In this document: piece by piece, positions 5,810 to 59,924 of the stretch
Layout: each line of letters begins with the position of its first letter
Position numbering within the stretch: position 1 is the first letter of the stretch
Assembly (NCBI GenBank): GCA_902616645.1
Contig: CACMTO010000003.1
Location: 1 to 64,000 of the forward strand
From: an uncultured Pelagibacteraceae bacterium
Lineage (GTDB): Bacteria; Pseudomonadota; Alphaproteobacteria; Pelagibacterales; Pelagibacteraceae
Length of the DNA: 64,000 nt
Direction: 5' to 3'
Position numbers and translations under genes: made by a program
Notes under the pieces: generated by a model
Seen by the model: only the letters and a program-made list of their open reading frames with translations
The model's database searches: none
Told to the model about the DNA's origin: nothing

Positions 5810-7594
5810 TTAATTGTTTAAAGCAGCTTGTTTTTTCATATCTTCTTTTTTAATACCAGCTACTCTGACAGGTTTTTTCATTGCATCTCTTCTAAAAGGT
5901 TCTCCTAATTCTTGGTTTAAAATCACTTCGATAAATGTAGTTATCCCCTTCTTTTGATCTTCACAAGATTTTTTGATTGCAGAAGTTGTTTCCTCCATTG
6001 TTTTAACGGTTACTCCCTTTAAACCACATGCATCAGCAACTTTTGCGTAACTTAATTCTGGATCAAGCTCTGTTCCAACAAAATTATTATCAAACCAAAG
6101 TGTGGTATTTCTTTTTTCTGCGCCCCATTGATAATTTCTAAATATCACCATTGTAATTGCAGGCCACTCTTTACGTGCACAAGAACTCATTTCATTCATA
6201 CTTATTCCAAAAGCTCCATCACCAGCAAAACCAATTACAGGTGTGTCAGGACAGCCGATCTTTGCTCCAAGAATTGATGGAAAACCATATCCACAAGGTC
6301 CAAATAAACCTGGCGCTAAGTATTTTCTTGGTTTTTCAAAAGTTGGGTATGCATTTCCTATTGCACAATTATTTCCAATATCGCTTGAAATAATTACATC
6401 TTCTGGCATTCCTGCTTGTATTGCTCTCCAAGCTTGTCTTGGTGACATTCTATCTTTGTCTCTTTCTCTTGCCTCTTTATTCCATACCGTACCCTCATCG
6501 TCATCCTCATGATCTAAACTAGAAAGTTTCTGCAACCAGGCTGATTTTGTTTGATGAATTAAATCTTTTCTTTTCTGTCTGTCTATATCTCCAGCGTTAG
6601 AAGATAATTTATCAAATATTTGTTGAGCAACTAACTTTGCGTCACCGCTTATTCCAACTGTGACTTTTTTTGTTAAACCAATTCTATCAGGGTTAATATC
6701 CACTTGAATAATGCTTGCACTTTTTGGCCAATAATCAATTCCATACCCAGGTAAAGTTGAAAAAGGATTTAGTCTTGTTCCTAAAGCTAAAACAACATCT
6801 GCCTTAGAAATTAATTCCATTGCTGCTTTTGAGCCATTGTATCCTAATGGTCCAACAGCTAAAGGATGGCTTCCAGGGAAACTATCATTGTGTTGATACC
6901 CAGAACAAACAGGTGAGTCTAATTTTTCAGCGAGTTTTTTTGCCTCTTCGATTGCACTGCCTATTACAACTCCAGCTCCAGATAGAATTACAGGAAATTT
7001 CGCATTAGATAAAAGTTTTGCAGCTTTATTAATTGCTTCAGCGCCTCCACCTTGTCTTTCTAATCTTACAATTGGTGGTAATTCGATATCGACAACTTGT
7101 GTCCAATAATCTCTTGGTACATTTATCTGAGCAGGAGCAGAGCCTCTTATAGCTTTTTCTATAACTCTATTTAAAACTTCAGCCATTCTTGATGGGTCTC
7201 TTACTTCTTCTTGATAACAAACCATATCTTTAAATAAATTCATCTGTTCAACTTCTTGAAAACCTCCTTGGCCCATCGTTTTATTTGCAGCCTGAGGTGT
7301 TACAAGTAATAAAGGTGTGTGATTCCAATAAGCTGTTTTAATTGGTGTTACTAACCCAGTTATTCCTGGTCCATTTTGAGCAATTACCATAGACATTTTA
7401 CCAGTAGATCTAGTGTAACCATCTGCGATTAATCCACCGTTTGTTTCATGTGCAACGTCCCAAAAAGTTATTCCCGCATCAGGAAAGATATCAGAGATAG
7501 GCATGAATGCTGAACCAATAATACCAAAAGCATGTTCAATGCCATGCATTTGTAAAACTTTTACAAAAGCTTCTTCTGTTGTCATTTTTGTCAT
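5810..7594 (-). CDS. xsc: Sulfoacetaldehyde acetyltransferase (ThDP-dependent)
   Basis: Xsc converts sulfoacetaldehyde plus phosphate to acetyl phosphate and sulfite. The 594-residue protein has the three-domain ThDP layout: N-terminal PYR domain with catalytic Glu in VAHETNGG, a central domain, and a C-terminal PP domain with the GDGAFG...N cofactor motif. The IIGSAFMPISDIFP and NQELGEPFRRDAMKKP stretches and the length fit Xsc rather than acetolactate synthase. I start at ATG 7594, eight bases after AGAAAGG. It is divergent from suyAB. Its substrate would come from taurine via the aminotransferase at 43.6 kb, and its product feeds the Pta at 49.9 kb. Confidence 0.92.
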   Translation of the reverse strand: MTKMTTEEAFVKVLQMHGIEHAFGIIGSAFMPISDIFPDAGITFWDVAHETNGGLIADGYTRSTGKMSMVIAQNGPGITGLVTPIKTAYWNHTPLLLVTPQAANKTMGQGGFQEVEQMNLFKDMVCYQEEVRDPSRMAEVLNRVIEKAIRGSAPAQINVPRDYWTQVVDIELPPIVRLERQGGGAEAINKAAKLLSNAKFPVILSGAGVVIGSAIEEAKKLAEKLDSPVCSGYQHNDSFPGSHPLAVGPLGYNGSKAAMELISKADVVLALGTRLNPFSTLPGYGIDYWPKSASIIQVDINPDRIGLTKKVTVGISGDAKLVAQQIFDKLSSNAGDIDRQKRKDLIHQTKSAWLQKLSSLDHEDDDEGTVWNKEARERDKDRMSPRQAWRAIQAGMPEDVIISSDIGNNCAIGNAYPTFEKPRKYLAPGLFGPCGYGFPSILGAKIGCPDTPVIGFAGDGAFGISMNEMSSCARKEWPAITMVIFRNYQWGAEKRNTTLWFDNNFVGTELDPELSYAKVADACGLKGVTVKTMEETTSAIKKSCEDQKKGITTFIEVILNQELGEPFRRDAMKKPVRVAGIKKEDMKKQAALNN

Positions 7595-7648
7595 CAATAA
7601 AGCCTTTCTAAACTAGTAAGTGTAATAATCTTTTTATAAAACTATTTG

Positions 7649-28165: not shown

Positions 28166-28639
28166 ATGATTGAACAAATTTATAATTATTTTTCATTTGA
28201 TATACTTTATTACTGGGTAAATTTAGGAGTTCTGCCTTTTTGGTTAATATTAATTTTCTTTCCAAATTTTCAAATTACGAAAATTTTTGTTACATCTATT
28301 TTCCCAATTTTTCTATTGAGTGGTGCATACATCTTAATGCTTTACAAATCTTATTTAAGTTCTTACAATTTTTTAGAAAATTTTAATCTTTATTTAAGCA
28401 TAAATGATCTCACAAGCTTATTTTCCAATCAGCCTTTCCTAATATTATTTTGGATACACTTTATCTCTATTAATCTTTTTACAGGAGGCTGGATTGTAAA
28501 TAATGCCCAAAAATATTCGATTAATAAAACACTTTTATCAATACCATTAATTGTTGTTTATCTTATTGGTCCAATTGGATTGTTTATTTATTGGATTATC
28601 AAAATTTTTTATTCAAAAAGTATTAATCTATATGACTAA
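28166..28639 (+). CDS. ABA4-like (DUF4281) membrane protein
   Basis: A 157-residue membrane protein with four hydrophobic segments. The HFISINLFTGGWIVNNA block and the final PIGLFIYWIIK helix fit the DUF4281/ABA4-like family, named for a plant neoxanthin-synthesis protein. In bacteria its role is unknown. I prefer the ATG at 28166, because the upstream ATG at 28136 would overlap recX. Its stop overlaps the next gene by eight bases. Confidence 0.65.
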   Translation: MIEQIYNYFSFDILYYWVNLGVLPFWLILIFFPNFQITKIFVTSIFPIFLLSGAYILMLYKSYLSSYNFLENFNLYLSINDLTSLFSNQPFLILFWIHFISINLFTGGWIVNNAQKYSINKTLLSIPLIVVYLIGPIGLFIYWIIKIFYSKSINLYD

Positions 28640-29216
28640 ATCATTGGATTTTTATTTTGATTTTATAAGTCCTTACTCATTTATTGCTCATAAAAAAATA
28701 GAAAAAATAAGAAAAAAAAAAATTATAAATATAAACTATAAACCTATTTTATTAGGGGGTCTTCATAACCTAGGAGGAATAACAGCTCCTGCGTTTAACG
28801 AACGTAAAATGAAAAATATGAAAAATGATTGTGTTTTAATTTCTTTGAAGAACGACATTGATTTTATCTGGAATTCTAAATTTCCAATTAATAGTTTATA
28901 TCTTATGAGGGGTTACCTTGCTATTGATGAAAAAGTAAAAAAAAATTTTTTTAATAGGTGTTTTGACGCTTATTGGAAAGAAAATATTGATATTTCCTTG
29001 GAAAAGAATGTAATTAATATTTTAAATTCCTGTGGCTTAAATAAAAATGTTTACTTTGAAGATATCAAAAAACAAGAAATCAAAGATAAACTGAAAAATT
29101 ATACAAACAATGCGTTTCAAAAAGATATTTTTGGTGCTCCAACATTCGTAGTGAATAATAAAATTTTTTGGGGGCAGGATCGATTAGAATATGCTCTAGA
29201 TGAGTATAATCTTTAA
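28632..29216 (+). CDS. 2-hydroxychromene-2-carboxylate isomerase-like (kappa GST/DsbA fold)
   Basis: A 194-residue thioredoxin-fold protein. The N-terminus LDFYFDFISPYSFIAHKK carries the active-site Ser of HCCA isomerases in place of a CxxC, and the C-terminal FGAPTFVVNNKIFWGQDRLE is the cis-proline and glutathione-site region. It starts at ATG 28632, eight bases inside the ABA4-like gene. A second protein of the same length and type is encoded at 59340-59924. The substrate is unknown; glutathione-dependent isomerisation is inferred. Confidence 0.78.
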   Translation: MTKSLDFYFDFISPYSFIAHKKIEKIRKKKIININYKPILLGGLHNLGGITAPAFNERKMKNMKNDCVLISLKNDIDFIWNSKFPINSLYLMRGYLAIDEKVKKNFFNRCFDAYWKENIDISLEKNVINILNSCGLNKNVYFEDIKKQEIKDKLKNYTNNAFQKDIFGAPTFVVNNKIFWGQDRLEYALDEYNL

Positions 29217-41449: not shown

Positions 41450-42457
41450 ATGAAAACAAAATTATTTATAACAGGTTCGTCAGGTTTTATTGGTTTTCAT
41501 GTTGCCAAAAGATATTTGGACAAGGGGTATATAGTGCATGGGCTTGACTCAATGAATAATTTTTATGACATTAAATTAAAAAAATCTAGATTAAAAATCC
41601 TGAAAAGATATAAAAATTTTTCATTCACTAAAGGAAATTTAGAAAATCAAACAATCCTAAATAATTCTTTAAATAAATTTAAACCTTCATTGATTATTCA
41701 TTTAGCCGCACAGGCGGGTGTCAGGTATAGTATAAAAAATCCAAAAGTTTATTTAAATTCAAATATAACTGGAACTTTTCATATTATTGAAGCTGCAAGA
41801 AAATTTAAAATCAAGCATCTTATTATTGGCTCCAGCTCATCGGTTTACGGGGCTAATAAAAAGTTCCCGTTTCGCGAAATTGATAAAACAGATAATCAGA
41901 TTAGTTTTTATGCTGCTACAAAAAAATCTACAGAGAATTTAGCACATTCTTATTCTAGCTTATGGAAAACACCAATAACAGTGCTAAGATTTTTTACAGT
42001 TTATGGTCCATGGGGTAGACCAGATATGGCTTATTTCAAATTTACAAAAAACATCTTAAGTGGAAGGAAAATAGATATTTATAATAAAGGAAAAATGTAT
42101 AGAGACTATACTTACATTGATGACATAGTCGATGGAATATTTAAATTAACTAATAAAATTCCAAAATTAAATTCATTAAAAAAATATAAAAATGATAGTC
42201 TTTCTCATGTTGCACCTATAAGAATTTTAAACATAGGGAACACAGAAAAAATTCTTCTTTCAGATTTTATAAATACTCTTGAAAAAGAGTTAGGGAAAAA
42301 AGCGATTAAAAAATTCCTACCTATGCAAAAAGGTGATGTTTATTCAACTTTATCTGACACAAAACTTTTAACAAGGATAACTGGTTATAAACCTAAAACA
42401 AAATACAAAGAAGGAATTAAGAAGTTTTTAAACTGGTACTTAAACTATTATAATTAA
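41450..42457 (+). CDS. NAD-dependent epimerase, UDP-glucuronate 4-epimerase type
   Basis: A 335-residue extended SDR. The NAD loop is TGSSGFIGFHVAKRY, the catalytic site is SSSSVYGANKKFPF plus YAATKKSTE (YxxxK), and RFFTVYGPWGRPDMAYFKFT is the hallmark of the UDP-glucuronate/UDP-galacturonate epimerases. It probably supplies uronic acids for surface glycans. It is divergent from the flavoprotein gene with only 29 bases between and ends overlapping ald by four bases. Confidence 0.85.
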   Translation: MKTKLFITGSSGFIGFHVAKRYLDKGYIVHGLDSMNNFYDIKLKKSRLKILKRYKNFSFTKGNLENQTILNNSLNKFKPSLIIHLAAQAGVRYSIKNPKVYLNSNITGTFHIIEAARKFKIKHLIIGSSSSVYGANKKFPFREIDKTDNQISFYAATKKSTENLAHSYSSLWKTPITVLRFFTVYGPWGRPDMAYFKFTKNILSGRKIDIYNKGKMYRDYTYIDDIVDGIFKLTNKIPKLNSLKKYKNDSLSHVAPIRILNIGNTEKILLSDFINTLEKELGKKAIKKFLPMQKGDVYSTLSDTKLLTRITGYKPKTKYKEGIKKFLNWYLNYYN

Positions 42458-43566
42458 AGTGATGATAAAGGATCAACATATTCATAGCCAAATGTATCAG
42501 CAACTGCTTTATATGTTACTTGACCTTTGTGAATGTTAAGTCCTGCTAAAAAATTTTTATCGTCACATAATGCTTTTTGATAACCTTTATTCGCTAATTT
42601 GACTAAATAAGGAAGTGTTACTTTATTTAATGCAATAGTTGAGGTTCTAGGAACTCCTCCCGGCATGTTAGCCACACAATAATGAACAACATTATCAACT
42701 ATAAAAGTTGGATCATTAAAGGTTGTTGGTTTACTTGTTTCTACACAACCGCCTTGATCGATTGCAACATCAACAATAACTGAGCCTCTTTTCATTAATT
42801 TTAACATATCTTTAGTAACTAACTTTGGCGCCTCTGCTCCGGGGATTAAAACTCCTCCTACTATTAAATCTGCTTCAGCTACTAACTTTTTTAAATCTAT
42901 TTTTTCACTCTGTTCCGGAATAATTTTATCACCGAAAATTTCAACTAATTGTTTTAGTCTTGCCTCAGATTTATCTACAATGTGAACTTTAGCCCGCATT
43001 CCAGTTGCTATAATTGCAGCATTTTCTCCTACTACACCTCCCCCTAAAATTAAAACATTTGCCGGTTCACCACCAGGAGCTCCACCTAACAATACTCCTC
43101 TACCTTTTTGGTTTTTTTCTAAACAATGTGCTCCTGCCTGAACTGACATACGTCCCGCTACAGCACTCATGGGTGCAAGTAAAGGAAGTTTTCCATTATC
43201 ATCAGTGATCGTTTCATAAGCTATATTAATACTTTTTGATTTTACTAAGCCCTCAGTCAATTCTTTTGCGGCAGCTAAATGTAAATAGGTATATACAATT
43301 TGATTTTCTTTAATCATTTCAACCTCAACTTTTTGAGGTTCTTTAACTTTAACAATTATTTCAGCATCATTAAAAATATCAGTGGCTTTTTCTATAATTT
43401 TAGCACCAGCATTTTTGTACTGATCATTTTCAAAGCCCGCTTCAAAGCCTCCATTATTTTCGACTAATACTTCATGTCCTTCAGAGACAAGGGTTTTTAC
43501 ACTATCTGGTGTTAAGCCTATTCTATTTTCTTGAGGTTTAATTTCTTTAGGTACGCCAATTCTCAT
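42454..43566 (-). CDS. ald: Alanine dehydrogenase
   Basis: A 370-residue NAD-dependent enzyme interconverting alanine and pyruvate plus ammonium. It has N-terminal RIGVPKEIKPQENRIGLTP, VKVKEPQ, NAD site LILGGGVVGENAA, and NMPGGVPRTST near the end, all typical of Ald. It follows the aminotransferase gene by nine bases, so the pair can recycle alanine formed by taurine:pyruvate transamination back to pyruvate and release ammonium. This pairing is known from taurine-degrading bacteria. Confidence 0.93.
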   Translation of the reverse strand: MRIGVPKEIKPQENRIGLTPDSVKTLVSEGHEVLVENNGGFEAGFENDQYKNAGAKIIEKATDIFNDAEIIVKVKEPQKVEVEMIKENQIVYTYLHLAAAKELTEGLVKSKSINIAYETITDDNGKLPLLAPMSAVAGRMSVQAGAHCLEKNQKGRGVLLGGAPGGEPANVLILGGGVVGENAAIIATGMRAKVHIVDKSEARLKQLVEIFGDKIIPEQSEKIDLKKLVAEADLIVGGVLIPGAEAPKLVTKDMLKLMKRGSVIVDVAIDQGGCVETSKPTTFNDPTFIVDNVVHYCVANMPGGVPRTSTIALNKVTLPYLVKLANKGYQKALCDDKNFLAGLNIHKGQVTYKAVADTFGYEYVDPLSSL

Positions 43567-43575
43567 TAACGAAAT

Positions 43576-44922
43576 TTAATTCTTTTTACTTTTTGCGTAA
43601 TTAGTTATTCCAGCTCTTAATTTTTCTATAATTTCGTCAATATGTTTTTTTTCACAAATAAACATTGGCGCTATAATTAAACAATCACCAGTGGCTTTAA
43701 AATTCACTCCTGCATCATAACAATGTTTAAAAGTGGCTAAGCCTGCTTTACCAGGCCTTCCATCAGTTTTAATATCTATACCGCCCATCATTCCATAGCC
43801 TCTAATGTTATCGACTACATCAATATCTTTTAGAGAAAATAGACCTTCTTGAAAATAAGGAGCTAGTTCTTTTGCTCTATTAAAAATATCATCTTTTTCA
43901 AAAATATCTTGAACAGCTAATGCTGCTGCAACAGAAACTGGTATTCCTGAATAAGTGTAACCATGAAATAACTCTATTGCACCTTTTGGAGAATTATCCA
44001 TAACTGCGTCATAAATTTCTTCTTTACAAGCAACCACACCAAATGGAACTATTCCATTAGTTGTTGCTTTTGCCATTGTCATTATGTCAGGTGTTACTCC
44101 AAACTCCTGAGCTCCAAAAGCTGAACCAGTTCGTCCCCATCCAGTGATAACTTCGTCAAAAATCAAAAGTATTTTATGTTTATCACAAAGTTCTCTTAAT
44201 CTTTGTAAATATCCAACAGGAGGAACTAAAGTTCCCGTTGAGCCAGCAATCGGTTCAACAATACAGGCTGCGATATTCTCTGAACCAAAATTAGTACAAA
44301 TTCTCTCTAAGTCATTTGCAATTTCAGCCCCTGTTTCAGGTTGACCGGATATAAATTTATGTTCATCTAAATGTGTATGTCTCATATGAACAACACCTGG
44401 CATTAATACACTTGCATAAGCTTTAACATTATTTATCATTCCACCCACTGATGTCGCTCCAATATTCATTCCATGATAAGCACGTTCTCTTCCAACAAAT
44501 CTGAACCTTTGTCCTTCGCCTCTTGCTTTGTGGTAAGCAATACTAATTTTAATCGCTGTCTCAACTGCAGTAGATCCGCAAATTGTATAAAAAATTTTAT
44601 TTAAATTTCCCGGTGTGTGTTTTGAAATTCTAGTTGCTAATTCGAAAGATCCACCAAATCCTTGTTGGAAAGGTTGGCAATAATCTAAAGTTTGTAATTG
44701 ATTTGTTATTGCTTCAATGATTTCTTTTCTGCCATGTCCCAAAGGATTACAGAACAATCCTGAGCTGGCATCAATTTGAGTTTTACCTTGGTGATTTTTT
44801 AAATATACACCTTTTGCTTCTACTATGAGTTTTGGATTTTCCTTAAAATCTTTATTGGATGTAAAAGGCATCCAATGTTCATTTAAAGAATTAGGTACAG
44901 ATGTTCTTTTTTCTGAGCTCAT
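43576..44922 (-). CDS. Omega-aminotransferase, probable taurine:pyruvate type
   Basis: A 448-residue class III PLP aminotransferase. The cofactor region is LIFDEVITGWGRTG, followed by MTMAKATTNGIVPFG with the PLP lysine. The start NEHWMPFTSNKDF and LDYCQPFQ pattern is that of the beta-alanine/taurine:pyruvate group. Position next to ald and divergent from tauABC favours taurine to sulfoacetaldehyde conversion (Tpa), which would feed Xsc. Beta-alanine:pyruvate activity is the main alternative, and the enzyme could do both. Confidence 0.78.
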   Translation of the reverse strand: MSSEKRTSVPNSLNEHWMPFTSNKDFKENPKLIVEAKGVYLKNHQGKTQIDASSGLFCNPLGHGRKEIIEAITNQLQTLDYCQPFQQGFGGSFELATRISKHTPGNLNKIFYTICGSTAVETAIKISIAYHKARGEGQRFRFVGRERAYHGMNIGATSVGGMINNVKAYASVLMPGVVHMRHTHLDEHKFISGQPETGAEIANDLERICTNFGSENIAACIVEPIAGSTGTLVPPVGYLQRLRELCDKHKILLIFDEVITGWGRTGSAFGAQEFGVTPDIMTMAKATTNGIVPFGVVACKEEIYDAVMDNSPKGAIELFHGYTYSGIPVSVAAALAVQDIFEKDDIFNRAKELAPYFQEGLFSLKDIDVVDNIRGYGMMGGIDIKTDGRPGKAGLATFKHCYDAGVNFKATGDCLIIAPMFICEKKHIDEIIEKLRAGITNYAKSKKN

Positions 44923-44994
44923 ATTAAAGTTTTAAAATGTTAATTTAATTAATCCTTAGACTAATTAAGTCCAATAAACCACCAAAATAATTGT

Positions 44995-45011
44995 CACAAC
45001 TTAAAGTTGTG
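44995..45011. promoter_or_regulatory. Perfect 17-base palindrome upstream of tauA
   Basis: CACAACTT-A-AAGTTGTG is an exact inverted repeat in the 175-base spacer between the divergent aminotransferase gene and tauA, 87 bases before the tauA start. Symmetry, length and position fit a dimeric repressor or activator site controlling both directions. No regulator gene is nearby. Confidence 0.5.
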
Positions 45012-45097
45012 TAACTAGAATGGGCATTTTTTTGTTTTACATATAGGTCAAATTAATCTTAAAATTGAAACATATAAATAAACAAGGAAGAGGAAAA

Positions 45098-46039
45098 ATG
45101 AAAAAAATAATTAGTTTTATTCTTGGATGTTTTGTAGCTCTTAACCTTTCAATAACAGTTGCTAATTCAGCTGCTAATGAAGTTAGAGTCGCTTACTTTT
45201 TAGAATGGCCTAGTCCAAACCTAGAGGACATGCATAAGAAAAGTTTTGCTAAAGCTTTAGGTGTGCCGGTTAAATGGACCAACTTCACAAATGGTGGAGC
45301 AATGACTGATGCTATGTTAGCTGGAGACATTGATATTTCTTATTCACAAGGATTAGTACCTTTCATAAATGCAGTTAAATCTAAAGCACCTATCAAGCTT
45401 GTAGATATAGCTATGGAATATGGGATGGGTGGAACAACTTGTGTAACTTCAAATGCATCAGGTATTACTAAAGCAAATGCCACTGAGCTAGAAGGTAAAA
45501 AAGTTGCTGTTCCACTTGGAACAATGGCTGAATACGTTTTTGATGAAAGTATGAAAGTTGTTGGAGCTGATAGAAAAAAAATGGATATAATCCAAATGGA
45601 TCCTGAAGAAGGCGCTGCAGCACTTGTAAGTGGCGATGTTGTGATGGCTTGCTTATTTGGTGGTAACTCAATTAAAGCTGCTACTGCAGTTGGATCTAGA
45701 TTACTAACAGTTCAAGAAGCTAGAGACGCTGGTATTTTAGGTATTGATATTACTTCTGTAACTACAAAGTTCATGAAAGAAAATCCTGGAATGCTAAGAA
45801 CTTTTATTGAAGTAACTCATGAGGCAAATGCTAGATATAGAGCTGGCAAAAGCGATTTGAACGCAATGTCAAAAGAATCTGAAATGAAAGTTAGTGATAT
45901 GAAAGAAACTTTGAGTGGTTTTAAATTCTTAACACCTGAAGAAACTGAAAAATCTATGAAAAGTGGAAATCTTGATGCTTTCTTAAAAGGAATGGGAACA
46001 CCAAGAGGAAATGTAGACACTAGTTTCTTACCTTTATAA
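45098..46039 (+). CDS. tauA: Taurine-type ABC transporter substrate-binding protein
   Basis: A 313-residue periplasmic binding protein of the NitT/TauT type. A signal peptide (KKIISFILGCFVALNLSITV, cleaved near ANSA) precedes EVRVAYFLEWPSP and VPLGTMAEYVFDE domains. The ATG 45098 has GGAAGAGG upstream; a TTG at 45065 would bury the signal. It heads tauA-tauB-tauC. Taurine is inferred from family and the Tpa/Xsc genes; DHPS or other sulfonates are possible given the downstream HpsN. Confidence 0.85.
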   Translation: MKKIISFILGCFVALNLSITVANSAANEVRVAYFLEWPSPNLEDMHKKSFAKALGVPVKWTNFTNGGAMTDAMLAGDIDISYSQGLVPFINAVKSKAPIKLVDIAMEYGMGGTTCVTSNASGITKANATELEGKKVAVPLGTMAEYVFDESMKVVGADRKKMDIIQMDPEEGAAALVSGDVVMACLFGGNSIKAATAVGSRLLTVQEARDAGILGIDITSVTTKFMKENPGMLRTFIEVTHEANARYRAGKSDLNAMSKESEMKVSDMKETLSGFKFLTPEETEKSMKSGNLDAFLKGMGTPRGNVDTSFLPL

Positions 46040-46061
46040 TATAAGGGTATTTAAATTTAAT

Positions 46062-46099
46062 TAGGCGCCGATTTTTTATAAATTGGCGCCTATTTTTTT
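46062..46099 (+). terminator. Intercistronic hairpin between tauA and tauB
   Basis: TAGGCGCCGAT (46062-46072) pairs with ATTGGCGCCTA (46082-46092), with one G-T pair, and is followed by TTTTTTT. It lies 22 bases after the tauA stop and 25 before tauB. It probably stops most transcripts or protects the tauA mRNA 3' end, so binding protein exceeds the membrane components. Confidence 0.85.
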
Positions 46100-46123
46100 A
46101 TTAATGCTAATATAAATTTTTTT

Positions 46124-46921
46124 ATGAGTGATTTAGTTTCTCAAAATCTTAACATGATTTTTAAAACTCCCAAAGGTGAAACTGTTCATGCTCTTAAAGA
46201 TTTAAATTTTACTTTAAAAAAAGGAGAGCTTTTAACAGTTCTCGGTCCATCAGGATGTGGAAAAACAACTTTGCTGAATATAACTGCTGGATTTATCAGA
46301 CCAACATCAGGAAGTATTACTTTAAACTACAAAGAAATAGATGGTCCAGGAGTAGAAAGAGGAATGGTCTTTCAACAAGGAGCTTTATTTGAATGGTTGA
46401 CTGTGGCTGAAAATGTAAATTTTGGGCTAAGAATGAAAAATGAAGATCCAATAAAAACTCAGAATAAAGTTGATGAGTGGCTAGAGATAGTTGGACTCAA
46501 AGGATTTGGTAACACGCCAACTTATCAATTATCTGGTGGGATGCAGCAAAGAGTTGCTCTTGCAAGATGTTTAATTAACGATCCAGACTTAATTTTAATG
46601 GACGAACCATTAGGGGCGTTAGATGCATTAACGAGAGAAAAGATGCAATCATTAGTTCTTAAAATTTGGAAAGAAACTGGAAAAACTATTATTTTAATTA
46701 CACACTCAGTTGAAGAAGCTTTATTGCTTGGGCAAAGGTTATATGTGATGGCGCCGAGACCCGGACGGATACATAAAGAATACAATCTTCCATTCGCATC
46801 AATGGGCTTAAGAGAAGACTTAAGAGAAATAAAAAAGAACAAAGAATTTTCAAGTAAACGAGAAGAAATTTTAGAAATGATTTGGAATATGGAAGAAGAG
46901 ATAATGGGGAAAGAAAATTAG
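46124..46921 (+). CDS. tauB: Taurine-type ABC transporter ATP-binding protein
   Basis: A 265-residue ATPase with Walker A GPSGCGKTT, Q-loop FQQGALFEWLT, signature LSGGMQQRVALAR, Walker B LILMDEPLGALD and switch His in ITHSVEEALLL. It is of the NitT/TauT subfamily. It lies after the intercistronic hairpin and its stop abuts the tauC start directly, so tauB and tauC are coupled. Confidence 0.93.
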   Translation: MSDLVSQNLNMIFKTPKGETVHALKDLNFTLKKGELLTVLGPSGCGKTTLLNITAGFIRPTSGSITLNYKEIDGPGVERGMVFQQGALFEWLTVAENVNFGLRMKNEDPIKTQNKVDEWLEIVGLKGFGNTPTYQLSGGMQQRVALARCLINDPDLILMDEPLGALDALTREKMQSLVLKIWKETGKTIILITHSVEEALLLGQRLYVMAPRPGRIHKEYNLPFASMGLREDLREIKKNKEFSSKREEILEMIWNMEEEIMGKEN

Positions 46922-48847
46922 ATGTTAACACAAATTATAACTTTTCTCATATTTTTTGCTGTAATTGGTTGTATTCTTTATGGAAGAAGATTAATTAAAA
47001 CAGAAAAGGTAGATGCAGTATTTGGCAATCCTGAAAGAGCATTAGGTGGAACACATTGGGTCATTGTTGGAAGCAGTTTTCTCCTTCTTATTTGGCTTTA
47101 TTATTCTTGGGATATCGCTAAAGGTTTTTATCCAAAATCTGCTAATGAACTATGTCAAGTGGGAAAAGTAAACGACTCTTTATTAGGATTAAAATATCAA
47201 TTTCCTATAGAAGAAAGAGAATTTAAAAGTACTTCTCAAATAAAAAAAGAAAATAATCACTTAAAGAAGCTTTCAATTGAAATAGGAAATTCTAAAGAGC
47301 TGAATAATGAACAGAAGATAATTCTTGTAAGTTTTGTAAATAAAACAAATCAATTAATTCCTTTATTGACAAATGAGGACTTACTTGAAAATGAAACTAG
47401 AAAAAAAATTGAGGAGATAACTGGTAAAATTAATCTTTTAACTGAAAATTTTCAAAAACCTGATTATCCGTTTGAAACAGAACAAGAGCTAAATGAAAGA
47501 CTTAAGGCAGTAAGCGAGGAAGGTGGATGGGGTATAACAAAGATTGATGCTGGATCAGGAAGTATTGAAAATACATTAGAAGTTCCTCTTGTACCAGCTA
47601 CAAGTAGAGGCTTAAAGTTTCATGCTGCAGCTCAAGAATTAAATTTAATTAGTGATGAATTTTTTAAACTAAGAAATCATAATCCAGAATTCAAAAATAA
47701 AATTAAAGAAATAAAAGACGAAATCAAAATATACAGAAATGATTTAAATGATGACGAAGAAATCGCTTCAACTTATGCTAAAAATATTGTCAAAATTGCA
47801 AGAAGAATAGAGTTTGCAAGTATTTATCCTCCTAAAGCATTAAATGAAATGCAAAATGCTATTATCAAATTTGACAATGCGCAAATTATAGCTCAAGGCG
47901 GCTTGAGATTTATTGATATTTTTTTATTTCCAGCTGGAACTATTGTTGCAAGTGGACCAAATTGTTCAGAACAGGGTTCTGGAAGATGGCTACCTAAACC
48001 ATCAGATACTTTCAAGAAATTTGTACTAATGTCTAAACCAAGCGTCGGTTATAAAGATATTCCTCTTTTATGGGTAAAAATGGTTGATTTAAGTAATGTA
48101 GTTGGTTTTATTTTTCCTGATTGGATAGCAGATATACTACCAGGTGAATATCCTGTTCATAACAAAGAAGGGGTCGTTAAACAAAACTTTAAAGGTGCAG
48201 TTTTAAAATTTGTTACAGGTGACTTTAAATTATTAAAAGTACCTGTTCCTTATGGACATATATGGGATTCATTTATGAGAGTTTTTTTAGGACTAATTTT
48301 TGGAATTATTATAGGGGTTCCATTAGGTTTATTTATGGGATTGAATAGGTTCGCTAAAGGTTTTTTTGATCCATTAATAGAATTATATAGACCTGTCCCC
48401 CCATTGGCATGGGCGCCTCTTATCATATCAGTTTTAGGGATTGATAACACAGGAAAAGTATTTTTATTATTTATGGTCTCATTATCTATTATGATCATTT
48501 CAGCAAGAGCTGGTGCTTCGGGCACTCAATTGTCAAAAATACACGCAGCACATTCTTTAGGGGCATCCAAGAAACAAATTTTACGATATGTAATTTTTCC
48601 TAACTCTTTACCTGAGATTTTAACTGGAATAAGGGTCGCTGTAGGTATGTGTTGGGGAACTTTAGTGGCTGCTGAATTTTTAGCAGGAACAACTGGCATT
48701 GGATTTGTGGAAAATGTTGCTAAAAAATACTTTCAGTACGAAGTTATTTGGATCACTATTTTCATAATGGGAATGCTAGGTCTATTGTTTGATATAACTT
48801 TAAGAAAAATAATAGATAAAACTATTCCATGGCGTGGAAAAGGATAA
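46922..48847 (+). CDS. tauC: Taurine-type ABC permease with long N-terminal extension
   Basis: At 641 residues this is more than twice a standard TauC (about 270). The last 200 residues are a normal permease domain (from about residue 440: WDSFMRVFLGLIFGIIIG, RPVPPLAWAPLI, and the EAA loop AHSLGASKKQILRYVIFP). The first 70 residues hold two membrane spans (2-20, 46-66), followed by about 300 mostly helical, charged residues (coiled-coil-like around 75-330) that should lie outside the membrane, then a LPKPSDT linker like that of ordinary permeases. There is no sign of frameshift. The extension may form a periplasmic docking domain. Confidence 0.85.
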   Translation: MLTQIITFLIFFAVIGCILYGRRLIKTEKVDAVFGNPERALGGTHWVIVGSSFLLLIWLYYSWDIAKGFYPKSANELCQVGKVNDSLLGLKYQFPIEEREFKSTSQIKKENNHLKKLSIEIGNSKELNNEQKIILVSFVNKTNQLIPLLTNEDLLENETRKKIEEITGKINLLTENFQKPDYPFETEQELNERLKAVSEEGGWGITKIDAGSGSIENTLEVPLVPATSRGLKFHAAAQELNLISDEFFKLRNHNPEFKNKIKEIKDEIKIYRNDLNDDEEIASTYAKNIVKIARRIEFASIYPPKALNEMQNAIIKFDNAQIIAQGGLRFIDIFLFPAGTIVASGPNCSEQGSGRWLPKPSDTFKKFVLMSKPSVGYKDIPLLWVKMVDLSNVVGFIFPDWIADILPGEYPVHNKEGVVKQNFKGAVLKFVTGDFKLLKVPVPYGHIWDSFMRVFLGLIFGIIIGVPLGLFMGLNRFAKGFFDPLIELYRPVPPLAWAPLIISVLGIDNTGKVFLLFMVSLSIMIISARAGASGTQLSKIHAAHSLGASKKQILRYVIFPNSLPEILTGIRVAVGMCWGTLVAAEFLAGTTGIGFVENVAKKYFQYEVIWITIFIMGMLGLLFDITLRKIIDKTIPWRGKG

Positions 48848-49853
48848 TTTGAAAACAAAAAATTTAAAAAAAGAAGTTATCAAAATATTTAAAAAATTTG
48901 GTTTAAGTGGAGATCATGCGTCTATATCAGCAAATGCTTTAATTAATGCTGAGTTAGTTGGTGCTTATGGACATGGCTTATCAAGATTAAAAATGTATTG
49001 TGATAGAATTTCTAAAAAAGTAATTAATCCAAAGCCACAAATAAAAATCAAAAAAATATCTGGATCTATTTCCCATGTTGATGCAGATGATAGTATAGGT
49101 TTTGTAGCTGCTGATATTGCAATCAAAAAGGCAATTGAGAATGCAAAAAAAACAGGTATTGGATTAGTTGCTGTAAAAAATAGTGGTCACTATGGTTTGT
49201 CAGGATACTATGCGGAACAAGCAGTAAAAAAGAATCTTGTCACAATGATTTATACCAATGCTCCTCCAGCAGTTGCACCACACGGTTCTTTGAAAAGTTT
49301 ATTTGGAACAAACCCAATATGTTTCGGTACTCCAACTGGATCGAAAATCCCTTTTATTCTAGATACCTCAATTTCAATGATTAACAGAGGTAAGATTAGA
49401 GTTGCAGCAAGAAACAATCAAAAAATTCCCGAAGGTGTAGCACTAGATAAATTAGGTAGGATGACAACAGATGCTAAAAAAGCACTTCAAGGTGTACAGC
49501 TTCCTATTGCTGGATTTAGAGGTTCAGGTTTAGCTTGGATGGTTGACATATTGAGCGGTGTATTGACTGGAGGAAATCATGCAGGCAGGGTTAAAGATCC
49601 ATTTGATGATTTTTCTGGTCCACAAAATATTGGACATTTGTTTATCACATTTAAAACAAATTTATTTGTCAAAAACTATAATAATAGAATTAGAGAAAAC
49701 ATTAGAAAAATAACAAGATTACCTAAAATTAAAGGAGTAAAAGAAATAGTGTATCCTGGACAAAATAAATATAAAAGATTTAAAATGAATTCAAAAAAGG
49801 AAATTGAGTTATCAAAAATGATCAAAAATGATTTGGAATTTTTAAAGAATTAA
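48834..49853 (+). CDS. Malate/L-lactate dehydrogenase (Ldh2) family enzyme, possibly sulfolactate dehydrogenase
   Basis: A 339-residue Ldh2-type NAD(P) oxidoreductase with ELVGAYGHGLSR (catalytic His), VKNSGHYGLSGYYAEQA, NPICFGTPT and GFRGSGLAWMVDILSGV. ComC-type (R)-sulfolactate dehydrogenase belongs to this family, and the HpsN, SuyAB and Tau neighbours make sulfolactate/sulfopyruvate a reasonable substrate; malate, lactate or ureidoglycolate are alternatives. Start is uncertain: GTG 48834 overlaps tauC by 14 bases, while TTG 48849 follows an AGGA by four bases. Confidence 0.72.
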   Translation: MEKDNLKTKNLKKEVIKIFKKFGLSGDHASISANALINAELVGAYGHGLSRLKMYCDRISKKVINPKPQIKIKKISGSISHVDADDSIGFVAADIAIKKAIENAKKTGIGLVAVKNSGHYGLSGYYAEQAVKKNLVTMIYTNAPPAVAPHGSLKSLFGTNPICFGTPTGSKIPFILDTSISMINRGKIRVAARNNQKIPEGVALDKLGRMTTDAKKALQGVQLPIAGFRGSGLAWMVDILSGVLTGGNHAGRVKDPFDDFSGPQNIGHLFITFKTNLFVKNYNNRIRENIRKITRLPKIKGVKEIVYPGQNKYKRFKMNSKKEIELSKMIKNDLEFLKN

Positions 49854-49855
49854 AT

Positions 49856-50767
49856 ATGTTGTCGAATAAAGAAATTGTTTGTCCTAATAATTTACTAAAT
49901 GCTGCACATAAAAAAAAAGGTGTTAAGGTAGGGATCGTAAATGCAGGAAAGCCATTACCGATGCTGTCAGTTCATGATGCAGTAAATGAAAATTTAATTG
50001 AACCAATTTTTATTGGAGATGAAAAAGAAATCCAAAAATGTGCACAAGATTTGAAATGGGATATTTCAAAATATGAAATTATTCATGAACCTATAGAAAA
50101 TAATACTGCTAATATCGCAGCTAAACTTGCTAGTGAGAAAAAAATTAGAATTATAGTAAAAGGTCATATTCATACAGATATTTTAATGAAAGAGGTTTTA
50201 AAAAGAGAGTATAATTTACTAGGTAAAACAAGATTAAGTCATATTTGGCACATGACTTTGGGCAAAGAAGATAAACCATTAATGATTACTGATGGTGCAT
50301 TGAATGTTTTACCTAATGTAAAAACAAAAATGCACATTCTTAAAAATGTAATAAATTTTTCTAATAGAATTGGAATAGAAAGACCAAAAATTGCAATTTT
50401 ATCTGCTACTGAAGAAGTTTTGGATAGTGTACCCAGTTCTAAAGAAGCATCTGAGCTAACAAAATTAGCTAAAAAAGAAAATTTAAAAGCAGATGTATTT
50501 GGGCCTTTGGCTTTTGATAATAGTGTTTCAAAGAAATCTTCTACTATAAAAGGAATTAAAAATGAAGTAGCAGGTATGGCTGATGTTTTATTAGTTCCAA
50601 GTGTTGAAACTGGCAACGGCCTTGTTAAAATGCTCATTTACTTTTGTGGAGCTTGTGCAGCTGGGGTAGTTGTTGGTGGAAAAGTTCCAGTCGTGATTAC
50701 TAGTCGTTCTGATGAGGCACCAGCGAGATTAGCCTCTATCGCTGCTGCAGTAGTTGCTTTGGATTAA
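49856..50767 (+). CDS. pta: Phosphate acetyltransferase (PTA/PTB family)
   Basis: A 303-residue single-domain phosphate acyltransferase with PMLSVHDAVNENLIEPIFIG, a central VKGHIHTDILMKEVL and FGPLAFDNSVSKKS, and the C-terminal VVGGKVPVVITSRSDEAPAR phosphate-site region. It would turn acetyl phosphate from Xsc into acetyl-CoA, the usual last step of taurine dissimilation. It begins two bases after the Ldh2 gene. Phosphate butyryltransferase is the alternative; no acetate kinase is nearby. Confidence 0.82.
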   Translation: MLSNKEIVCPNNLLNAAHKKKGVKVGIVNAGKPLPMLSVHDAVNENLIEPIFIGDEKEIQKCAQDLKWDISKYEIIHEPIENNTANIAAKLASEKKIRIIVKGHIHTDILMKEVLKREYNLLGKTRLSHIWHMTLGKEDKPLMITDGALNVLPNVKTKMHILKNVINFSNRIGIERPKIAILSATEEVLDSVPSSKEASELTKLAKKENLKADVFGPLAFDNSVSKKSSTIKGIKNEVAGMADVLLVPSVETGNGLVKMLIYFCGACAAGVVVGGKVPVVITSRSDEAPARLASIAAAVVALD

Positions 50768-50818
50768 TACTTTGATTGCAATAAAATCAAAATTGACTTA
50801 AAAAACTAAAAAAAATTA

Positions 50819-52105
50819 ATGTCAATTACATATTTAAAAAAATCTCCAAAAACATCATCGACTGATGATACAAAAACAACAGGAATAGTTCAAAATTTAT
50901 TAAAAGATTTAGAAAAAACCAAAGAACAAGGTTGCATCGATTTAACAAAAAAATTTGATAAATACGAAGGTGATATAGTTGTTTCAAAAGATAGAATTGA
51001 AGAAATAAAAAAAACTTTAGATCAAAAGACAAAAGATGATATTCGTTTTTCACATGAAAGAGTAAAAAAGTTTGCTGAAGCTCAGCTTAAAAATTATGGT
51101 CAGGATTTCGAGGTTGAATTATCTGATGGTCTTTATGCAGGTCAAAAACTAGTGCCCGTAAATACAGCTGGATGTTATATTCCTGGTGGAAGATATGCAC
51201 ATATAGCCTCGGCTGTTATGAGTGTTACTACTGCAAAAGTAGCAGGTGTAAAAAATATTATAGCATGTAGCCCTCCTAAAGAAGGTGTTGGTGCCCATCC
51301 TGCTATTATTTATACAGCTGATCTTTGTGGAGCAGATGTAATTTTAAATTTAGGTGGAGTACCTGCAGTTGCAGCAATGACTAATGGTTTATTTAAAAAT
51401 TCTCCTGCAGATATAATTGTTGGTCCTGGAAATCAATTTGTTGCTGAGGCAAAAAGAATTTTATATGGAAAAGTTGGTATTGATTTATTTGCAGGTCCTA
51501 CAGAAATAGGAATTATTGCAGACTCTAAGGCAGATCCAGAAATCATTGCTGTAGATCTAGTTGGCCAAGCCGAGCATGGATATAATTCACCTTGTTGGTT
51601 ATATACAACTAGCAAACAGATAGCAGAAAAGGTTATTAAAAGAGTTCCTGAGCTGATTGCTGAACTCCCAGAGATTCCAAGAGCAAGTGCAGATGCTGCT
51701 TGGAGAGATTATGGAGAAGTAATACTTTGTGATACTGATGATGAGATAGTAAGGATTAGCGATCAATATGCTCCTGAACATTTAGAAGTTCAAACAGAAA
51801 ACTTAAAATGGTTTTATGATAGATTAACAAATTATGGATCATTGTTCATGGGTGAGGAGACAACAGTTGCTTATGGAGACAAATGCTCAGGTACAAACCA
51901 TATTTTACCAACTAAAGGTGCAGGAAAATATACTGGTGGTTTATTTGTAGGAAAATTTATAAAAACTTTAACTTTTCAAAGAATGACCAAAGAATCCACC
52001 AAACTTGTAGGCGCTACAGCTGCAAGGATATCAAGATATGAAGGAATGGAAGCTCATGCAAGGACTGGTGATGTAAGACTTCGAAAATATGGTTATTCGA
52101 ATTAG
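50819..52105 (+). CDS. hpsN: HpsN-like sulfopropanediol dehydrogenase (histidinol dehydrogenase family)
   Basis: A 428-residue HisD homologue with VNTAGCYIPGGRYAHIASAV, GPTEIGIIAD, the zinc/active region GQAEHGYNSPC and the catalytic pair E320-H321 in QYAPEHLEV. The GGRYAH and DVRLRKYGY features and the sulfonate neighbours fit HpsN, which oxidises (R)-2,3-dihydroxypropane-1-sulfonate to (R)-sulfolactate, the SuyAB substrate. No histidine-synthesis gene is adjacent (a HisN-like phosphatase lies 8 kb away), but true histidinol dehydrogenase cannot be wholly ruled out. Confidence 0.82.
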   Translation: MSITYLKKSPKTSSTDDTKTTGIVQNLLKDLEKTKEQGCIDLTKKFDKYEGDIVVSKDRIEEIKKTLDQKTKDDIRFSHERVKKFAEAQLKNYGQDFEVELSDGLYAGQKLVPVNTAGCYIPGGRYAHIASAVMSVTTAKVAGVKNIIACSPPKEGVGAHPAIIYTADLCGADVILNLGGVPAVAAMTNGLFKNSPADIIVGPGNQFVAEAKRILYGKVGIDLFAGPTEIGIIADSKADPEIIAVDLVGQAEHGYNSPCWLYTTSKQIAEKVIKRVPELIAELPEIPRASADAAWRDYGEVILCDTDDEIVRISDQYAPEHLEVQTENLKWFYDRLTNYGSLFMGEETTVAYGDKCSGTNHILPTKGAGKYTGGLFVGKFIKTLTFQRMTKESTKLVGATAARISRYEGMEAHARTGDVRLRKYGYSN

Positions 52106-59339: not shown

Positions 59340-59924
59340 ATGATTGACTTTTATTTTTCAATTGGAAGCACTTATACTTATTTAGCTGTCACTAGAATAC
59401 TTGATGTCGAAAAAAAATATCAAGTCCAGTTTAATTGGAAACCATTTAGTGTTCGGGCAATCATGAAAGAAATGAATAATATTCCATTTCCAAAGGAGAA
59501 GCTTAATAAGGTAAATTACATGTGGAGAGATATTGAAAGACGGGCTGAAGGTTATGGATTTTTTGCAAAAACACCTGTGCCTTACCCATTATCTGAATTT
59601 GACTTAGCAAATCAAATTGCGATACTTGGATTGGATAAGGGATGGGGTATAGATTATGTTAGACTGACTTATAAAAAATGGTTTCAAGAAGGAAAAGAAC
59701 CAGCGATAGAACCAAGTATTTCTGAGATATGTAAAGAATTAAAAATGAACAAAGATGATATAATTTCTGAGGCAAAAACAAAATTAATTGAGGATAAATA
59801 CCTAGCTAATACAAATTCTGCAAGAGAGAATAAAATCTTTGGTAGTCCAACTTTTGTCGTTAACAATGAGATATTTTGGGGTGATGATAGAATGGAAGAT
59901 GCAATCAAGTTCTTTAAAAAATGA
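59340..59924 (+). CDS. 2-hydroxychromene-2-carboxylate isomerase-like, second copy
   Basis: A 194-residue kappa-GST/DsbA-fold protein. It begins IDFYFSIGSTYTYLAVTR with the presumed active-site Ser and ends GSPTFVVNNEIFWGDDRME, closely like the protein at 28632. Most of the middle differs, so they are old paralogues. Its stop overlaps the DUF2798 start (ATGA). Glutathione-dependent isomerisation or conjugate processing is inferred. Confidence 0.8.
   Translation: MIDFYFSIGSTYTYLAVTRILDVEKKYQVQFNWKPFSVRAIMKEMNNIPFPKEKLNKVNYMWRDIERRAEGYGFFAKTPVPYPLSEFDLANQIAILGLDKGWGIDYVRLTYKKWFQEGKEPAIEPSISEICKELKMNKDDIISEAKTKLIEDKYLANTNSARENKIFGSPTFVVNNEIFWGDDRMEDAIKFFKK

Follow-up and report, generated by a model that had tools for sequence, protein, structure and literature searches.

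The closest described systems to the gene presented here are the TauC/SsuC/NrtB/CmpB-type permeases, and CmpB and the nitrate permease are the nearest solved relatives of its core. Another point of comparison is the maltose permease, in which the MalF-P2 region has an Ig-like fold and sits between TM3 and TM4. A part of this periplasmic region touches the binding protein (PMC3150292). A third is offered by the sensor domains of TorS, McpS and PilJ; the title of a structure entry describes TorS in complex with TorT, a periplasmic protein. Field work shows that SAR11 bacteria take up taurine and account for a large share of the cells doing so, particularly near the surface (PMC6647121).

Here we describe a tauC gene of an uncultured SAR11 bacterium (Pelagibacteraceae), located in a stretch of 64,000 nucleotides which was analysed as a whole and is referred to as the window. 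The encoded permease carries an insert that is a real, conserved feature of SAR11 TauC on a known kind of importer. As the preliminary description stated, the gene is one uninterrupted open frame, and its ATG starts at the first base past the tauB stop. Its parts are as follows.

46922..48847, + strand: tauC, whole gene, 641 aa (open reading frame with Pfam and NCBIfam matches)
46922..46993, + strand: TM0, residues 1-24, an extra N-terminal span (hydrophobicity, alignment)
46994..47056, + strand: residues 25-45, loop of positive charge carrying VFGNPER, probably on the cytoplasmic side
47057..47125, + strand: residues 46-68, apparent counterpart of the ordinary TM1 (profile comparison with insert-less relatives)
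47126..47986, + strand: main insert, residues 69-355 (about 285-287 aa), predicted to be nearly all-helical and probably periplasmic
47153..47155, + strand: codon of the invariant Cys78 (100 of 100 loci; 9 of 9 in a diverse set)
47963..47965, + strand: codon of the invariant Cys348 (likewise 100 of 100 and 9 of 9)
47987..48007, + strand: WLPKPSD, residues 356-362, matching the LPxP motif of short TauC proteins
48038..48241, + strand: second, smaller insertion, residues 373-440 (about 65 aa), preceding TM2
48254..48844, + strand: ordinary permease core, residues 445-641 (Pfam 465-628; NCBIfam TauC 445-640)

The ordinary nature of the core, also recognized earlier, rests on BPD_transp_1, the sole Pfam family above cut-off in TauC (residues 465-628, 89.2 bits against 26.4). 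The best-scoring NCBIfam model was the TauC equivalog PRK10160, but its 181.4 bits stay under the curated cut-off of 342, and for this reason we call the gene a TauC-type permease and not a PRK10160 equivalog. Ahead of the core, an N-terminal extension of about 370 residues with two extra spans had been proposed, and this part has to be redrawn. On our reading of the alignments, the extra material consists of one N-terminal span, TM0, and of two insertions flanking the LPxP motif, the main one placed after TM1 and the second past LPKP; residues of about 46-68 line up with TM1 of insert-less relatives, which leaves TM0 alone as extra.

When the profile comparison was limited to the N-terminus, VFGNPER and the span that follows it aligned with the corresponding motif and TM1 in the group lacking an insert (P 1.1e-4, probability 57%); with the Paracoccaceae-type inserted group the N-terminal comparison was weak (P 0.048). 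WLPKPSD was aligned with the LPxP motif of short TauC proteins inside a longer match also spanning TM2 (P 3.2e-11). Since full-length (local) comparisons put TM1 of the short proteins just before or just after the motif, and not at residues 46-68, the assignment was based on the N-terminal comparison together with the motif order, and we identify residues 46-68 as the ordinary TM1 with moderate confidence. The second insertion contains a hydrophobic stretch (residues 380-398), which we treated as interfacial because, taken as a span, it would break the topology. Internal duplication of the main insert was considered and rejected, as its halves fail to align (hhalign probability 0.4%).

To define the occurrence of this form, residues 1-429 or a profile of residues 1-444 were searched for in other genomes. 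The insert-bearing form is the usual TauC of the genus: residues 1-429 were matched in 107 of the 151 congeneric genomes, and in 20 of 22 when only genomes with completeness of 90% or more and contamination of 5% or less were counted. The genus match rows were free of internal stops in 107 of 108 cases, the exception being one broken copy (G439). With the same residues, 9 of 385 genomes (6 of 276 genera) were matched in a sample of the class, where two genomes from another genus of the own family gave no match, and the phylum-wide sample returned 1 of 398, the own genome alone. The profile reached further: 35 of 61 genomes of family f109, probably SAR116 (21 of the 28 good ones; 9 of 11 genera), and 7 of 11 genomes, including 5 of 5 good ones, in a small third order (families f117, f162 and f238). 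The insert is not confined to this genome, and insert-bearing TauC is present in five families of the class, the own one and four others. Homologues with only 30-34% identity over residues 1-444 still have a total length of 638-644 aa, and the nearest named relatives, among the best 80 of 533, are Pelagibacteraceae (SAR11) proteins up to 94% identical. Residues 1-429 gave no match on the plasmids searched, and 46 pattern matches on viral contigs included no relative.

For residue-level comparisons 131 loci were fetched, 31 of which were dropped (frame cut, non-ATG start or outside the length filter); the 100 kept are mostly SAR11, and some represent the same gene fetched twice. Further candidates for a long TauC were frames of 619-802 aa, including those of 619, 662, 691 (L179) and 802 aa (L178). 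L179 was rejected as such, as it has an arginine- and alanine-rich stretch without spans ahead of a short TauC.

The preliminary description expected the extra domain to face the periplasm, which we find probable, and knew of no described function for it. In 100 of 100 sequences Lys+Arg in the TM0-TM1 loop exceeds that of the segment before TM0 as well as that of the first 20 residues past TM1, so by the positive-inside rule the insert is expected to lie outside. This charge distribution and the two invariant cysteines suggest a periplasmic main insert. Situated near the insert ends, Cys78 and Cys348 probably form a disulfide, although Cys348 falls where the model has low confidence. Two genes of the own genome exceed the Pfam cut-off for the DsbA family, both inside the window (28551-29216 and 59340-59924).

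AlphaFold2 prediction of whole TauC with 64 close sequences was poor (mean pLDDT 51.9), with ten-residue blocks at 101-200 and 221-330 helical at block means of pLDDT 67-88. When residues 66-362 were modelled on their own, the top model out of five reached a mean pLDDT of 74.5 and pTM of 0.68, the others a mean pLDDT of 58.9-68.2; it is nearly all helix with two short strands, and its last 33 residues, including Cys348, have pLDDT <50. In both models the main insert is predicted to be mostly helical.

No described domain was matched by residues 1-444 in Pfam or PDB profiles, and the insert model had no significant match in the structure library. Pfam scanning of nine insert-bearing members gave weak or single-member helical matches only, the best being LRS4 (4.6e-4, in 1 of 9), and the PDB profile search gave 13 matches at E <=1, all to coiled-coil, bundle or similar helical proteins (best 0.0012). 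A permease fused to a substrate-binding domain, of the OpuA/GlnPQ kind, was rejected: no such family is found in residues 1-444, the predicted fold is helical and TauA has a gene of its own. No description of the domain was found in the literature listings searched on it and on SAR11 taurine and transport proteins, which cover a minority of subscription papers. In the libraries and literature covered, the main insert is apparently undescribed.

Other TauC proteins help to locate the insertion site. Short relatives have TM1, the LPxP motif and then TM2; an insert-less group (f35, f66, f82, f89, f166) has a TVKFGD or TVTFGD motif ahead of TM1. Another inserted group, comprising two named Paracoccaceae plasmid proteins (Paracoccus seriniphilus, 408 aa; Rhodobacteraceae bacterium SC52, 420 aa) and members of f23 and f155, has, in this order, TM0, TVTFGD, TM1, 106-122 inserted residues and LPxPE (TauC loci L031 5365-6591, L032 5251-6513 and L187-L189). 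Homology of the helical insert with the Paracoccaceae-type one was not detected (probability 0.2%). Both Paracoccaceae-type members scanned (L187 of f23 and L188 of f155) gave a bacterial Ig domain match just over the Pfam cut-off, of 25 residues; the match being marginal, with no stretch passing on its own, the Ig-like label is tentative. We also noticed that short TauC proteins of f49 (L170, L171, L172) have a small two-cysteine insertion between LPxP and TM2.

The window places tauC in the order tauA-tauB-tauC, within the following set of genes.

42454..43566, − strand: alanine dehydrogenase
43576..44922, − strand: AptA-family omega-aminotransferase (565 bits against a cut-off of 500), with a putative role in taurine use
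45065..46039, + strand: tauA-like substrate-binding protein (313 aa if begun at the later ATG, 45098)
46124..46921, + strand: tauB-like ATPase
48834..49853, + strand: Ldh_2 family dehydrogenase, overlapping the tauC end (nearest to L-sulfolactate dehydrogenase, under its cut-off)
49856..50767, + strand: phosphate acetyl/butyryl transferase
50819..52105, + strand: histidinol-dehydrogenase family protein, possibly a sulfonate dehydrogenase, which we take to be a candidate HpsN
5810..7597, − strand: xsc, sulfoacetaldehyde acetyltransferase (968.8 bits against a cut-off of 676.4, at 5861-7588)

The cluster at 42454-52105, together with xsc elsewhere in the window, fits the use of taurine and perhaps of other sulfonates. 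TauB best matches a taurine ATPase model and TauA the SsuA family, each with a score under the cut-off of that model. As TauA, TauB and TauC all stay under the taurine-model cut-offs, with TauA best as SsuA family, we leave the probable substrate at taurine or a related sulfonate. The genes tauA, tauB and tauC adjoin in all 12 insert-bearing neighbourhoods examined, and in three of four other SAR11 neighbourhoods tauC starts at the base after the tauB stop, the fourth being one base off. In 2 of the 12 they are followed by an aminotransferase gene and by an open frame of some 600 aa, and the one such frame checked is xsc. Some SAR11 genomes have sugar-related genes between tauC and the Ldh_2 gene: one (L038 9948-11767) carries a glycosyltransferase 17 and a GFO/IDH/MocA oxidoreductase, and another (L060 9939-10817) an NAD-dependent epimerase encoded on the opposite strand.

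In trees of the TauC core, TauB and TauA, ten insert-bearing systems form one clade each (100/100, 100/99 and 100/99, respectively); the five systems with the Paracoccaceae-type insert also group together in each of the three trees, while the insert-less group does not. SAR11 was represented there by L012 and L013, not by the window's own copies, all three trees were midpoint-rooted, and those of TauC and TauA were flagged for long branches. Median dN/dS (NG86, 150 SAR11 pairs) was 0.044 for residues 75-355, 0.011 for 362-440, 0.038 for 1-45 and 0.009 for the core, as obtained from 70 sequences, taking the most similar pairs with insert dS of 0.15-1.2, which are non-independent. The insert is under purifying selection and evolves faster than the core.

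We propose that the insert is a periplasmic docking domain for TauA, with a role comparable to that of MalF-P2, and assign to this reading a probability of roughly 0.45. An importer of the TauABC kind, presumably for taurine or a related sulfonate, would have gained in its permease a further span at the N-terminus and, between TM1 and LPxP, a periplasmic domain of alpha helices, the base of which is probably closed by the Cys78/Cys348 disulfide. If the permease is homodimeric, two inserts would stand at the pore mouth, where they may receive, orient and hold loaded TauA, and delivery might in this way stay efficient when substrate is scarce. Favouring the docking role are the unbroken insert in five families, the adjacency of tauA and tauB, the single clade for each protein and the low dN/dS; the charge pattern, the invariant cysteines, the helical models, the unrelated insert at the same site elsewhere and the MalF-P2 precedent point in the same direction. 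It is weakened by TauA, in which no obvious new surface stands out in insert-bearing systems; the differences amount to nine group-specific columns and an altered C-terminal end. It is weakened, too, by the moderate standing of the TM1 assignment and by the substrate models being under cut-off, and its topology would be upset if residues 380-398 were a span. As a separate observation, SAR11 TauA (L012 8082-9056, L013 11375-12316) aligns without a C-terminal stretch of about 15-25 residues found in other groups (L187, L188, L032 and L180-L185 in the comparison).

The conservation profile of the insert bears on docking and also on a structural role, in which the insert would stabilise the permease dimer, cap the pore or reach the cell wall or the outer membrane. 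Among 25 diverse sequences the membrane-proximal ends of the insert are the most conserved and its helices the least, which weakens docking and, along with the all-helical build, would suit a structural element as well. Apart from tauA and tauB, however, no partner gene is consistent across neighbourhoods, and co-inheritance with TauA and TauB fits either reading; we regard a structural role as rather unlikely.

A sensing domain, that is a periplasmic helical bundle like those of TorS, McpS and PilJ which on binding taurine or some other cue would modulate transport, would agree with the similar size of the insert and its position between two spans. A further fold search gave middling matches, led by a designed chimera, with the sensor bundles of McpS (Z 8.2, rmsd 9.3, 167 aligned), TorS (Z 7.9, rmsd 8.3, 161) and PilJ (Z 7.6, rmsd 9.2, 177) among them. 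Such Z scores with large rmsd are, however, in the range of common helical arrangements, and designed or unrelated bundles rank equally high. Moreover, Foldseek on the insert model returned 309 matches at E <=10 but none at E <=0.001, and Pfam detected no sensor family at E <=0.1 in the nine members, a scan from which distant members of such families could escape. A sensor therefore appears unlikely to us, somewhat more so than a structural element.

Faster evolution of the insert relative to the core (0.044 against 0.009) might also be read as a nearly neutral elaboration without a role of its own, but 0.044 is still strong constraint, the insert is retained although SAR11 genomes are small (20 of the 22 good ones have it) and both cysteines persist at every kept locus, so that this account is highly improbable. 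An artefact of assembly or gene calling, or a merger of two genes into one frame, hardly deserves consideration, as nothing but the broken copy G439 speaks for it, while several families show the equal, unbroken length in drafts as well as in single-contig genomes, the start directly follows the tauB stop here and in three of the four other SAR11 neighbourhoods, and conserved residues run from TM0 on.

Returning to docking, if the insert captures TauA, it would be a heritable importer part that could bear on affinity and on the amount of binding protein per tiny cell, and a shared need would have been answered in different lineages by unrelated domains placed at a single site. A broader and rather doubtful possibility is that in alphaproteobacterial TauC the loop following TM1 has repeatedly and independently received periplasmic domains of unrelated origin that serve to capture TauA, helical ones in SAR11, the probable SAR116 family and the third order, and possibly Ig-like ones in Paracoccaceae and their relatives. 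Abundant marine bacteria would then possess a type I importer with a binding-protein receptor of a kind not described before, fitted to sulfonate at very low levels.

Compared with known systems, SAR11 TauC shares with the TauC/SsuC/NrtB/CmpB-type permeases of type I ABC importers the permease core (residues 445-641) and the adjacent tauA and tauB, and differs from them by TM0, by the 287 residues inserted past TM1 and by the smaller insertion ahead of TM2. Paracoccaceae-type TauC resembles it in having TM0, an FGD motif, TM1 and an insert ahead of LPxP, but that insert is of 106-122 residues and possibly Ig-like, and there is no second insertion. With the TorS, McpS and PilJ sensor domains the SAR11 insert shares a helical periplasmic domain between two spans, as predicted here, while fold scores are middling, no sequence-family match was detected in the nine members scanned and the host is a transporter. 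With MalF-P2 it has in common a large region, in SAR11 TauC probably periplasmic, within a permease subunit, for which a similar role is proposed, whereas MalF-P2 is beta-rich and the SAR11 insert is modelled as nearly all helix, between TM1 and TM2.
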